DNA of 64,000 nt from Sulfurovum sp. (GTDB taxonomy: Bacteria > Campylobacterota > Campylobacteria > Campylobacterales > Sulfurovaceae), in assembly GCA_027049035.1 (NCBI GenBank), contig JALTVI010000018.1, forward strand, positions 1-64,000, read 5' to 3'. Within the stretch, counting starts at the first letter, position 1. Each line of letters starts with the position of its first letter. The position numbers were made by a program, and so were the translations under genes. Positions 3,645 to 63,617 of this stretch are shown here, in pieces. The notes below the pieces were generated by a model, which did no database searches, had not been told where the DNA came from, and saw only the letters and a list, made by a program, of their open reading frames with translations.

Positions 3645-3671
3645 GTTAACCAACTGGTTAGTTAATTATAG
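3645..3671 (-). promoter_or_regulatory. Promoter with TetR-type operator (copy 1)
   Basis: A TATAAT -10 hexamer on the minus strand (forward 3665-3670) is overlapped by an inverted repeat. The 20 bases at 3652-3671 match 19/20 bases of 17455-17474, in front of the TetR gene, including the -10 hexamer. The right half site TAGTTAATT is identical; the left half is weaker (6/9). It lies just upstream of the Tat-protein gene at 3618. Binding by the TetR protein at 16795-17436 is inferred. Confidence 0.7.
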
Positions 3672-4016
3672 GCTACTCTTTCTTAATTTATTATTAAAGA
3701 ACGTTTTCCCCTATTTATTGTAGGGATTTTTTATAATTATTGACAGCATCTTTGAAAAGATTTAAAAGTGAGGTAATGTTCAATCAGTGTTCACTGTTTT
3801 CAGTAATTTGTATTTTTCATACAACAAAAGTGCACAATTCATTCTGGATGATACATGACAAGAGGGGAGTACAGTACCGTGCAGACATGCATTGGTAGCG
3901 GATGGGAGTGCTTATAATGATATCACTATCTGTATTTTAGACAAAAACCGATAAAGTAATTGCATGCACTTTTCTTCTGATCAGTGACAGAATATGCTTA
4001 ACGGAGTCAGCACATC
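3672..4016. other. Non-coding spacer between divergent genes
   Basis: AT-rich spacer between the leftward operon (starts 3618) and the rightward APC permease (4017). I see no plausible gene. An AAAATAGG-like A/T-rich stretch and several short palindromes are present, but no convincing terminator or riboswitch. The permease promoter should lie in the last 100 bases; a CGGAG ribosome site lies just before its ATG. Confidence 0.5.
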
Positions 4017-17450: not shown

Positions 17451-17474
17451 AATTAACTAGTTAGTTAATTATAG
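17451..17474 (-). promoter_or_regulatory. Promoter with TetR-type operator (copy 2)
   Basis: AATTAACTAGTTAGTTAATT at 17451-17470 is an inverted repeat of 9-bp half sites (AATTAACTA/TAGTTAATT) with a 2-base centre. It overlaps a perfect minus-strand TATAAT (17468-17473) and lies 15 bp before the TetR start. No clear -35 is seen, as is usual for the main sigma factor of Campylobacterota. Confidence 0.75.
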
Positions 17475-17514
17475 AGTGGTAAAACTTAATTCTTTATGAA
17501 ATGACTAGAATACA

Positions 17515-33338: not shown

Positions 33339-34442
33339 ATGAATCCCTATGAGCGATTTCACCCCTTTCAAAACGACTTCAGAGACCCTTTCTCCCGTGA
33401 CCGCGACCGTGTCATTCACTGCAGCTCTTTCAGACGGCTTGAATACAAGACACAGGTCTTTCTCAACCACGAGGGGGATTACTTCCGAACCCGCCTGACC
33501 CACTCACTGGAAGTAAGCCAGATCGCCAGAACACTGGCACGCCAGCTTGGACTCAATGAGACGCTTGCCGAGGTGATCGCCCTTTCGCACGACCTGGGCC
33601 ATACGCCTTTCGGGCATGTGGGCGGTGACGAGCTTGACCGTCTGCTCAAAGCCGACGGGCATGAATTGGGATTCGAACACAATTTTCAGTCCTTTCGTGT
33701 TTTAACGAAGCTTGAGAAGCGCTACAAGGAGTTTGACGGGCTAAACCTTACTTTTGGCACACTTGAGGGGGTGCTCAAGCACTCCTACCCCTACGAAAAA
33801 CCGTTCCTCAAAGGGCTTGATGCACGTTTTGCACTCGACAGACACCCCAGCCTCGAAGCGATGGTGGTTGACCATGCCGACGAGATCGCCTACACGTCAC
33901 ACGACATAGACGACGGGGTGAAGTATGGGCTTATTACATTCGATGACCTGCTCGATGAGCCGCTATGTCAACGTGTCGATGCGATGGTGGTACAAGAGGG
34001 GGTAAGACAAAACGAACCGCTCTACCGCCACCGTTTCGTTGCGGGGCTGATCAAACTGCTGGTAGAGGACTTCATTGAAAACTCAAGAGAGAAGACGGCA
34101 CACTACAGAAAAGAGGAGCCCATCTGCGCGACGATCGATGCAAAAGAGCCCCTGCCGGCAACCTTCTCCAAAGAGACAGCCACGCAGCTGAAACTGCTGA
34201 AAAAACGGCTTTTCAAAAAGCTCTACAAGCATGAGAAGATCGCTCGGAAGATGTATGCGGGGAAACAGTGCATACAGGGACTCTACAAGGCATTCAGTGA
34301 AGATCACGACCTGCTTCCCGAACATCAGAAAGCGCTTTTTGACGTGCGTCCTGCACACCGTGTCATCGCCGATTATCTCGCTGCGATGACCGACCGCTAT
34401 GCGATGAAGACCTACCACGAACTCTACGGACTTTCACTATAG
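33339..34442 (+). CDS. dgt: Deoxyguanosinetriphosphate triphosphohydrolase-like protein
   Basis: 367 residues from the second of two adjacent ATG codons (AAGGA gives better spacing than to the first, at 33336). HD-domain metal ligands are visible in RLTHSLEVSQIARTLARQ and IALSHDLGHTPFGH, later VVDHADEIAYTSHDIDDGVKYGLI. The N-terminus (RDPFSRDRDRVIHCSSFRRLEYKTQVF) is diagnostic. The family cleaves dNTPs to nucleosides and triphosphate. The divergent thyX supports a role in balancing dNTP pools. Confidence 0.92.
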   Translation: MNPYERFHPFQNDFRDPFSRDRDRVIHCSSFRRLEYKTQVFLNHEGDYFRTRLTHSLEVSQIARTLARQLGLNETLAEVIALSHDLGHTPFGHVGGDELDRLLKADGHELGFEHNFQSFRVLTKLEKRYKEFDGLNLTFGTLEGVLKHSYPYEKPFLKGLDARFALDRHPSLEAMVVDHADEIAYTSHDIDDGVKYGLITFDDLLDEPLCQRVDAMVVQEGVRQNEPLYRHRFVAGLIKLLVEDFIENSREKTAHYRKEEPICATIDAKEPLPATFSKETATQLKLLKKRLFKKLYKHEKIARKMYAGKQCIQGLYKAFSEDHDLLPEHQKALFDVRPAHRVIADYLAAMTDRYAMKTYHELYGLSL

Positions 34443-34465
34443 TTTTTTGAATAATTTGTCGTCAA

Positions 34466-34549
34466 GGTTTCACTCGATGGCGACAAAGGAGCACCCAACC
34501 CGAAGGGTGGCTTTGCCATTTGCGACTGCCAGAGCTATCGAGTGAAACC
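34466..34549 (+). repeat. 84-nt structured repeat element, copy A
   Basis: Between dgt and typA. Its 16-base ends (GGTTTCACTCGATGGC ... GCTATCGAGTGAAACC) pair fully, with one G-U. It matches the reverse complement of 43932-44015 at 77 of 84 positions. An inner stem pairs element positions 43-46 with 50-53. It lies 24 bp after dgt and 117 bp before typA. There is no T-run after it, so it is not a standard terminator. Confidence 0.8.
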
Positions 34550-34666
34550 GATGATTTCCCAGAGAACCTTGGTCAAAAATTTTAGCTAAATCCCAAATAT
34601 AGTAAGTTTTGGATATAATGCGCGAAAATTAGAGGGCTGCGTGCCCTTGTTACGATAGGAATTTTC

Positions 34667-36484
34667 ATGCAAAAAATCAAAAACATCGCTGTTATCGCAC
34701 ACGTCGACCACGGCAAGACCACCCTGGTAGACGAGCTTCTCCAGCAATCGGGTACATTCGCTGCCCACCAGCAGGTAGACGAGCGTGTCATGGACAGCAA
34801 TGACATCGAAAAAGAGAGAGGGATTACCATCCTCTCCAAGAACACCGCCATCACCTACGGCGACCACAAGATCAACATTATCGACACCCCGGGCCACGCT
34901 GACTTCGGCGGCGAGGTAGAGCGTGTCCTGAAGATGGTCGACGGCGTTTTGATGCTCGTCGATGCACAGGAGGGTGTCATGCCTCAGACCAAGTTCGTTC
35001 TCAAAAAGGCGATCGAACTTGGTCTCGTTCCCGTTGTCGTCATCAACAAGATCGACAAGGACGGTGCTGAGCCCGACCGTGTACTTGATGAGATGTTCGA
35101 CCTGCTTGTCGCACTCGATGCGAACGAAGAGCAGCTTGAGTTCCCGGTACTCTACGCAGCGGCACGTGACGGGTATGCCAAGTGGAACCTCGAAGATGAG
35201 AACAAGGATATGACACCGCTCTTTGAAGCGATTTTGGAGAAGGTTCCCTACCCTGAAGGCTCACCTGACAACCCGACACAGGCACAGGTTTTCACACTCG
35301 ACAGTGACAACTTTGTCGGACGTATCGGGATTACCCGTATCTTCAACGGCAAGGTGAAGAAGGGCGATGAGTATATGCTGGTCAAGGCTGATGGCGAGAA
35401 GGTAAAATCACGTGTCAGCAAACTGATCGGATTCAAGGGGCTTGACCGTATCGAGATCGAGGAGGCTGAAGCGGGTGACATTGTCGCGATTGCAGGATTC
35501 TCCGATATCGACGTAGGTGACTCTATCTGTGATCCGAATAACCCCGTACCGCTCGATCCGATGCATGTCGAAGAGCCTACCCTCTCTGTCATCATGTCGG
35601 TAAATGACGGTCCTCTGGCAGGAACAGAAGGGAAACACGTCACCTCCAACAAGATCCGCGAGCGTCTTGAAAAAGAGATGGAGACCAACATCGCCATGCG
35701 TATGGAACCGATGGGAGATGCCTCTTTCAAAGTTTCCGGCCGTGGTGAGCTTCAGATCGGTATTCTGGCAGAGAATATGAGACGTGAAGGGTTCGAGTTC
35801 CTGCTGGCGCGTCCGGAAGTTGTCGTCAAGGAAGAGAACGGCGTGAAGATGGAGCCGTTCGAGCACCTTGTTGTCGACGTTCCCGAAGAGTTCCAGGGTG
35901 TTGCCATTGAGAAACTCGGGAAGCGTAAAGCGGAGATGACAAGTCTCACACCGATGCCTGACGGTACGGTACGTATCGAGTTTGAAATTCCTGCACGCGG
36001 GCTCATCGGTTTCCGTTCGGAATTCCTGACCGATACCAAGGGGGAGGGAATTATGAACCACTCTTTCCTGGAGTACAGACCCTACACCGGTACGGTTGTC
36101 AGCCGAACACCGGGTGCACTCATCTCCATGGATGACGGTGAAGCGGTTGCCTTCTCCATCTTCAACCTTCAGGCACGCGGAACGCTCTTTATCAAGCCGC
36201 AGGACAAGGTCTACAACGGCATGGTCATCGGTGAATCGGCACGTCCGGGAGACCTTGAAGTCAACCCGCTCAAGGGTAAGCAGCTGACGAACATGCGTAC
36301 TTCCGGTGCGGATGATGCGATTAAACTGGTACCGCCAAGAGAGATGTCTCTGGAGATTGCGATGGAGTGGATCGAAGATGACGAACTTATCGAAGTGACC
36401 CCTGAGAGCATCCGTATCAGAAAGAAGCACCTCGACCCGGCGATGCGTAAACGTGTTCAGAGAGACAAGAAGAACGCGAAATAG
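34667..36484 (+). CDS. typA: Translational GTPase TypA/BipA
   Basis: 605 residues. The G domain shows [36 protein letters not shown] and [17 protein letters not shown]-like domains II, III and V follow, then the BipA-specific C-terminal domain ending [21 protein letters not shown]. It binds ribosomes and helps assembly and stress adaptation. It is preceded by a 224-bp spacer holding element copy A; an AGGA site lies before the ATG. Confidence 0.96.
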
Positions 36485-43795: not shown

Positions 43796-43931
43796 GACTT
43801 GTCTGAATCATACGCTCTTTTGCTTAAGTTAAGATAAAATGAAAGCTAAATAAGATAAAAAACCTCTGAATTAAAATTTTTGGTTAATTTTTTGGGACTA
43901 TAATGGTTTATGATTGATGTCTGAAAGGTAT

Positions 43932-44015
43932 GGTTTCACCCGATAGCTCTGGCAGTCGCAAACGGCAGAGCCGCCCTACGGGTTGGGTGCTCCTTTGTCG
44001 CTATCGGGTGAAACC
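43932..44015 (-). repeat. 84-nt structured repeat element, copy B
   Basis: Inverted second copy of the 34466-34549 element, between divergent nifS and the SpoIIAA-like gene. Ends GGTTTCACCCGATAGC/GCTATCGGGTGAAACC pair perfectly over 16 bp. Relative to copy A, pair 9-76 changes T-A to C-G and pair 43-53 changes T-A to C-G. On the plus strand it ends 39 bp before the ATG at 44055; on the minus strand it lies 200 bp before nifS. Confidence 0.8.
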
Positions 44016-44054: not shown

Positions 44055-44441
44055 ATGGCAGCAAAAATCAAAGAACACGGCATAGGCATCGCGATCAAAC
44101 GTGCACAGAAGCGTCTTTTCATCGAAGTGACGATGATCGGGAAGCTGACACACGAAGATTATGAAGTCTTTGTTCCTTTCATCGACAAGGCACTCAAAGA
44201 GGCCAAGGGACTTGAAGTGGATATGCTTGTGGATATGCGCAATTTCAAAGGCTGGGAACTCAAAGCAGCGTGGGATGATATGAAGTTTGGTCTCAAACAT
44301 CGCAACAGTTTTGACAAAATGGCGATCGTAGGCGACAAGAAGTGGGAAGAGATTTCGGTGAAGATGTTTGCCCATATGATGAAAGGCAAGACAAAGTTCT
44401 TCAAAGATCGCCAGAAAGCGCTGGCGTGGCTATTGAAATAG
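44055..44441 (+). CDS. SpoIIAA-like STAS-fold protein
   Basis: 128 residues matching the SpoIIAA-like family (PF11964): VTMIGKLTHEDYEVFVPFIDKAL, VDMLVDMRNFKGWELKAAWDDMKFGLKH, KMAIVGDKKWEEISVKMF and a C-terminal ALAWLLK. The fold is STAS-like, but the family lacks the conserved phosphorylated Ser context of anti-anti-sigma factors and its role is not established. It is alone, with copy B of the 84-nt element just upstream. Its TAG stop is part of TAGGGTGCGT, also found at both ends of the palindromic element downstream. Confidence 0.85.
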   Translation: MAAKIKEHGIGIAIKRAQKRLFIEVTMIGKLTHEDYEVFVPFIDKALKEAKGLEVDMLVDMRNFKGWELKAAWDDMKFGLKHRNSFDKMAIVGDKKWEEISVKMFAHMMKGKTKFFKDRQKALAWLLK

Positions 44442-45223: not shown

Positions 45224-45260
45224 TTACAATCCCATCCAATAAAAGCTTTTCGAAAGAAAA

Positions 45261-45350
45261 GCATACCAAAACTATTCACTATTCACTCTTAACTCTTCAC
45301 TCACGCAACGCGTGGCAGCATACCAAAACGCTTCACTCACACATCGTGTG
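45261..45350. repeat. Composite repeat: heptads, hairpins and GCATACCAAAAC motif
   Basis: GCATACCAAAAC occurs at 45261-45272 and 45318-45329. The first is followed by 7-bp units ACTATTC, ACTATTC, ACTCTTA, ACTCTTC (45271-45298). Both lead to CTTCACT plus a 5-bp hairpin with a 3-base loop: CACGC-AAC-GCGTG (45302-45314) and CACAC-ATC-GTGTG (45338-45350). The second hairpin includes the last codons of mutY. Confidence 0.75.
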
Positions 45351-54595: not shown

Positions 54596-54728
54596 AGTGA
54601 ATAGTGAATAGTGAATAGTGAATAGTGTCGGTATGTATTGCTGCGCAATACTTCTATTTATCGGTTGCTCACTGCTCACTGCTCACTCCTCCTTTTTAAC
54701 TTTTAATTTTTAACTTTTAATTTTCTCA
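54596..54728. repeat. Heptad repeat array between DUF58 and moxR
   Basis: Four AGTGAAT units (54596-54623) come first, then a hairpin GTATTGC-TGC-GCAATAC (54635-54651) preceded by GGTATG (the complement of CATACC). Three GCTCACT units follow (54667-54687), then alternating TTTTAAC/TTTTAAT (54694-54721) and a decayed unit up to the end of moxR. All arrays have 7-bp period although the unit changes. Confidence 0.85.
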
Positions 54729-63049: not shown

Positions 63050-63125
63050 GGTCGCGTAGCTCAGTTGGTAGAGCACTACCTTGACATGGTAGTGGTCGTT
63101 GGTTCAAGTCCAATCGTGGCCACCA
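63050..63125 (+). tRNA. tRNA-Val (anticodon GAC)
   Basis: 76 nt with CCA encoded. The acceptor stem GGTCGCG pairs with CGTGGCC (two G-U pairs), D arm GCTCAGTTGGTAGAGC, anticodon stem CTACC/GGTAG around TTGACAT (anticodon GAC at 63083-63085), T arm with GGTTCAAGTCC. GAC reads GUC and GUU valine codons. Confidence 0.96.
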
Positions 63126-63203
63126 TATATCTTCTTCGATACAATTCATTTTTTCAAAAATCATAGTATAATACTCCCATTACGTTTACGAAAGAGAGAA
63201 GTT

Positions 63204-63617
63204 ATGGATAAATCGATGATGGTATTCATTGCCGTGGGTATAGGCTTCTTCTATCTGGTGACCACCTATGTGGGAGACATACAGAAAGAGGATGACCGTC
63301 TGCAGAATACGGGGTATGAACAGGAACACAAGTTCGACCAGTACTATACCGAGGACAGTATGGGAGACAAGATACTCGATGTGACGCTTGCTGATCCGCA
63401 GACGCAGGTGGCGGCCTGGAACAAGAGCCCGCTCAAAGAGGAGTATCTTGACCTCTTTCCTGACTTCGATACAATGCGTACGTTCGTCAAGAACCGTGTA
63501 AGAGGCAAGGAACTTATCGACAAACTTAACAGGCAGATACAGGAAACCGAAGACAAGTTTTTCTCCGGAGCACTCGATGCAGAAGGCGCCAAGAGGGCGC
63601 TGAAACAGCTTAAATAG
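63204..63617 (+). CDS. Membrane-anchored protein of unknown function
   Basis: 137 residues from the ATG at 63204 (AGAGAGAAG upstream). One N-terminal helix (MMVFIAVGIGFFYLVTTYVG) anchors a mostly acidic/helical domain (DDRLQNTGYEQEHKFDQYYTEDS). A C-terminal coiled region (KELIDKLNRQIQETEDKFFSGALDAEGAKRALKQL) follows. No family is recognised; it may be lineage-specific. Confidence 0.75.
   Translation: MDKSMMVFIAVGIGFFYLVTTYVGDIQKEDDRLQNTGYEQEHKFDQYYTEDSMGDKILDVTLADPQTQVAAWNKSPLKEEYLDLFPDFDTMRTFVKNRVRGKELIDKLNRQIQETEDKFFSGALDAEGAKRALKQLK

Follow-up and report, generated by a model that had tools for sequence, protein, structure and literature searches.

Two copies of an 84-nt structured element were found in the window (the whole stretch of 64,000 nt of Sulfurovum sp. 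DNA that was analyzed). Copy 1 (copy A of the numbering used below; 34466-34549, folding strand +) lies between a 375-aa ORF (+, ending at 34442) and the downstream gene typA/bipA (34667-36484, +), and copy 2 (43932-44015, folding strand -) lies before a SpoIIAA-like gene (44055-44441, +), which is downstream of it. The copies differ at seven positions (9, 14, 38, 43, 48, 53, and 76). Positions 9 and 76 (outer stem) and positions 43 and 53 (inner hairpin) each show a double compensatory change from T-A to C-G; position 14, which partners position 71, changes a G-U pair to A-U; and positions 38 and 48 each occupy the center of a triloop. The seven differences, their positions, the two double changes, and the G-U to A-U change had been listed in the first-pass annotation, and comparison of the copies confirmed them exactly. 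The stability of the predicted fold is -39.1 kcal/mol, compared with -21.4 kcal/mol in shuffled sequences (z = -5.6).

Outermost in the fold is a stem (P1), followed by a conserved internal loop and then by a three-way junction that bears a GNA triloop. In copy 1 (all parts on the + strand), the 5′ arm of P1 (34466-34479) pairs with its 3′ arm (34536-34549), the pairing being kept and the sequence free. The conserved strands of the internal loop are GCGACAAA (34480-34487), which is the type I signature, and TGCCAGAGC (34527-34535). The 5′ arm of P2 (GGAGCA, 34488-34493; positions 23-28) pairs with the 3′ arm (TGCGAC, 34521-34526; positions 56-61) via two G.A pairs, and P2 encloses the hairpins P3 (CCC-GAA-GGG, 34499-34507; stem 34-36/40-42) and P4 (TGGC-TTT-GCCA, 34508-34518; stem 43-46/50-53). 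The inner fold first drawn from the two copies was nearly right, and the comparative data add the P2 stem around both hairpins. Read as in copy A, the core is P1 - GCGACAA - P2 - CYCAA - CCC(GNA)GGG - CGGCNNNGCCG - TT - P2′ - GCMRGAGY - P1′. In other families, a GTYA bulge beside an A-tract/T-tract extension of P2 replaces the internal loop, and the three-way junction is retained.

End-like sequence flanks the window copies: TTTTGAATAA to the left of copy 1 (34445-34454, +; compare CTCTGAATAA and CTCTGAAAAA in relatives), TTTCCCAGAG to its right (34555-34564, +; compare TTTTTCAGAG), and TCTGAAA, in + strand reading, beside copy 2 (43920-43926, -). By their likeness to the ends seen in relatives, the first two are probably decayed left and right terminal repeats, and the third may be a terminal-repeat remnant. 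No target duplication was recognizable at the window's own copies.

Other features of the window were recorded. A tRNA gene (63050-63122, +) is overlapped by a match to the Rfam antisense RNA HPnc0260 (63087-63220, -), above the gathering score, within the region 63050-63220. A AGTGAATAGTGAATAG minisatellite-like stretch is present as inverted copies at 45255-45301 and 54596-54642, and similar stretches adjoin the element copies L003 and L036. A 47-nt direct repeat (3652-3698 and 17455-17501) has 74% identity. The GC skew turns from negative to positive around 24000, and over the following 10 kb most of the long reading frames change strand.

A DNA search of the element's own genome (2.49 Mb, 92 contigs) returned approximately 20 short copies and 13 long copies; the long copies (e.g., L039, L046, and L047; G000) carry approximately 80 extra nt in the P4 loop, and this stretch is similar among copies. 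The first covariance model, built from 16 copies, gave 38 matches in this genome at E ≤ 1 and 31 and 12 matches in two congeners; the family is far beyond chance occurrence. The second model, built from 30 diverse members, detected the element in 52 of the 399 genomes of the order (E ≤ 0.001), with a patchy distribution over eight families. Among the named genomes, the exact core pattern matched Sulfurovum, Nautiliaceae, Nitratiruptor, and other Campylobacterota metagenome-assembled genomes; outside these, a handful of unrelated matches was obtained, approximately the number estimated by chance. No match was found in phage and plasmid records. The first-pass annotation had recognized no known family and had suggested a covariance-model search of the genome and its relatives; that search yielded many copies with covariation, and the Rfam 15 covariance models gave no credible match to the element at the gathering threshold or at relaxed E-values. 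In a literature search on such repeats in the phylum, only the CGTC/GTAG repeat paper concerned Sulfurovum. One 39-bp fragment (at about 1970-2010 of L037; G000 C47:44469-44507) comprises the left half of the element without the right half.

Covariation was assessed in 31 diverse Sulfurovaceae members, nearly all of which have private outer stems. Double changes were observed in 22 of the 27 pairs, and all 14 outer pairs covaried, in an alignment fitted to the model, which leans the pair count; the outer stems are unmistakable by eye. In the same set, 95.6% of the cells were paired (66% in shuffles), and every slid control collapsed. Flanks beyond the model were complementary in a copy-specific manner in 51 of 158 cases, compared with 5 of 316 controls. 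The GNA triloop ends P3 in 122 of the 136 parsed members and is closed by C-G or T-A alike. At the locus of window copy 1, the tandem G.A pairing of P2 (GGA/GAC) is replaced in the sister species by GGT/ACC (GGTGCA/TGCACC). Selection on a single-strand fold, which had been claimed from the compensation between the two window copies, is strongly supported by these comparisons; the two copies alone were a weak basis for it, and the cross-species data carry the claim.

The two strands could be told apart. When the innermost P1 pair was excluded, the non-Watson-Crick cells of P1 comprised 85 G-T and 31 A-C, and those of P2 comprised 10 G-T and no A-C. With RNA parameters, 137 of the 159 members were more stable as the copy A strand than as its complement, and with DNA parameters 129 of 159 were, in a test that shares a detection bias with the model used to find the members. 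Wobble bias, folding energy, and the GNA triloop together identify the copy A strand as the folding strand. A UNCG-tetraloop RNA on the sense strand was considered and rejected: where the closing pair is U-A, members retain GNA on the opposite strand, and the wobbles favor copy A.

Signs of insertion were observed in relatives. Terminal inverted repeats together with target-site duplications were found in G039 (3 bp) and in G208, G291, and G131 (4 bp); clear target duplications and ends were limited to these few relatives. Eleven sites of G039 share the end TACCAATCC; nearly all are hairpins of approximately 220 nt, mostly flanked by TTA/TTA. One copy flanked by TCA/TCA is nested inside an older copy, and the joined flanks match the family length after removal of one TCA. 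GARNNCTCTGAAAAA forms the ends in G208, G291, and G131, where the duplicated bases are AATA, AATG, or AATT. The termini differ between genomes, and more than one mobilizing system may therefore be involved. The same terminal repeats with AATT flanks also bound unrelated TTCCGGACTTGATCCGGAA palindromes of the CGTC type (L289, L292, and L298), so that different palindromes share ends. The sister species G002 provided an empty site (L018 vs. L243) and an inverted copy between the same flanks (L011 vs. L227); among orthologous pairs, three were inverted in place and 38 were unchanged. Between the shared ends at the examined sites of G039, G208, G291, and G131, the search detected no transposase gene, only further palindromes and ordinary genes. 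Because no autonomous insertion sequence with the same ends was found at these sites, we use "MITE-like" rather than MITE of a named insertion sequence.

Orientation was compared with replication in the 13 genomes in which DnaA was placed, on the assumption that the origin is at dnaA and the terminus opposite. The folding strand was oriented against the fork in 64 of the 78 placed copies and with the fork in 14 (P = 9e-9), and none of the 13 genomes had the reverse majority. The bias was present between convergent or divergent genes (23:5) and in the ++ (8:2) and -- (13:2) arrangements. It is thus not a by-product of gene direction. The window copies are 9.4 kb apart and face in opposite directions; one is therefore likely in the minority orientation.

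Since the orientation follows replication whatever the gene context, we read the element as a DNA-level hairpin rather than as a riboswitch: it is probably a non-autonomous, palindromic, MITE-like DNA repeat family of Campylobacterales, with a strand-specific fold and a fate linked to the fork. The REP/MITE-type alternative of the first-pass annotation fits best, given the terminal repeats, the target duplications, the empty site, and the intergenic positions in all gene contexts. The acting molecule would be DNA rather than RNA, and an enzyme may recognize it. Under this interpretation, the fold would act as single-stranded DNA exposed at the replication fork, where a putative recombinase or transposase might recognize it; or copies with the better-folding strand on the lagging-strand template might be lost by deletion, inversion, or counter-selection, and such loss would leave the observed orientation. 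Several observations count against this reading: clear ends and target duplications were confined to a few relatives, the termini differ between genomes, and a mobilizing enzyme was looked for (Y1 proteins; examined sites between shared ends) and not found. In addition, different species retain copies before the dnaJ-like, batD, gltX, and hsp20 genes, and such persistence would not be needed by a purely selfish element.

More tentatively, the element could be mobile DNA of a new class, in which a conserved folded single strand (a branched hairpin with a GNA triloop) would be recognized at the fork by a putative enzyme. Such DNA could exchange its stems, invert where it stands, and take on the ends of different transposition systems, and it would have settled repeatedly at fixed positions in front of housekeeping and heat-shock genes.

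These fixed sites also bear on a cis-regulatory RNA, i.e., a 5′-leader or antisense RNA that would control the neighboring gene and be copied around the genome incidentally. In 30 of the 33 Sulfurovaceae type I members with private outer stems, many of which are orthologues (approximately a dozen independent cases), the left-hand gene reads away from the element, its start mostly 26-90 nt away. The same genes follow in several species (dnaJ-like, batD, gltX, hsp20, ATP-grasp, and relA/spoT), and the stems covary at fixed positions, both of which favor a regulatory RNA; other such members precede hslU and ffh. However, most conserved-position members have their folding strand antisense to the adjacent gene; it was not found in sense before a consistent gene set, as in a riboswitch or leader. 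Moreover, the multi-copy members occur in every gene arrangement (++, 19; +-, 10; -+, 21; and --, 13), and even where the flanking genes converge or diverge, orientation follows replication. The regulatory alternative is unsupported for most copies. We regard such an RNA role as unlikely for the family; exaptation as local regulatory or structural sites is possible for some of the copies that stand at conserved positions in front of genes.

The paired changes could also have arisen without selection, through intrastrand template switching (quasipalindrome correction) of a neutral palindrome, with conversion spreading the variants. Arm-to-arm exchange does happen: orthologous copies can have entirely different outer stems that still pair, and copies are inverted in place. 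At the ATP-grasp locus, the arms are GGTTTCAC in the own genome and its congeners and private in other species (L079/L049 vs. L088/L105), which indicates that single-copy and multi-copy members belong to one family and that arms may be replaced by conversion. Nevertheless, the families have kept the asymmetric internal loops, the GNA triloop, and the three-way junction, features that correction would tend to erase; the wobbles are biased to one strand; and at one locus P2 stays paired whether by G.A or by Watson-Crick pairs. Neutral correction as the source of the pairing seems improbable to us.

That the element is a classical REP/REPIN handled by a RAYT (Y1) transposase is very improbable: it is a short palindromic intergenic repeat with inverted arms, and Y1 proteins occur in many of these genomes, but they do not correlate with the element, G291, G107, G131, G255, and G074 (each with at least seven copies) had no Y1_Tnp match, and target duplications are present, which single-strand Y1 chemistry is not known to make. 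The closed relative G061 (L170) has seven apparently identical 143-aa Y1 transposase genes.

MITEs are short, non-coding, and near-palindromic, with terminal repeats and short target duplications. The MITE-like family described here shares these features, a length of approximately 80-250 bp, and many intergenic copies with ERIC, NEMIS/Correia, and RUP (background in part from PMC3733652). It differs from them in a strand-specific three-way-junction core conserved across an order, with stems turning over by covariation, in a clear replication-strand bias, and in that no parent insertion sequence was found at the examined sites. CGTC-tagged repeats have been reported from Sulfurovum NBC37-1 (PMC3733652, PMC3116915); like these and REPs/REPINs, the element is an interspersed palindrome, and its terminal repeats also bound TTCCGGACTTGATCCGGAA palindromes. 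REPs/REPINs carry GTAG or a similar tag at the foot of their palindrome; in type II, CGTC was often noticed after the P1 stem, but inside the longer element. Unlike REPs/REPINs, the element has no RAYT link, is longer, and has a branched fold and target duplications. Integron attC sites are likewise sequence-poor and structure-rich folded single-strand sites, with the folding strand on the leading-strand template (PMC11023631); chromosomal integrons are reported to keep it there, and when such an integron is inverted, excision goes up and growth is affected (PMC11023631), which makes them the nearest published parallel to the orientation bias. The element, in contrast, does not lie in cassette arrays, has its own terminal repeats, and lacks attC boxes in most members. 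The boxes (RYYYAAC ... GTTRRRY) were found in 9 of 159 elements on either strand, and identity with attC was rejected. In single-strand hairpin promoters of the phage N4 type, one of the DNA strands forms a C(GNA)G triloop. The element shares this triloop, but its fold is branched, and it has no phage context and no match in phage records. The palindromic-repeat or MITE kind is already known; what differs is the conserved strand-specific core with stem turnover, together with the fork bias.

The element is a marker family for Campylobacterales, with large copy-number differences between species. It clearly exemplifies an interspersed bacterial repeat whose single-strand structure, not its sequence, persists and whose folding strand is identified. 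The gene-independent replication-strand bias opens a long-standing question to testing, namely whether palindromes of this sort, as single-stranded DNA at the fork, act, move, or are purged.
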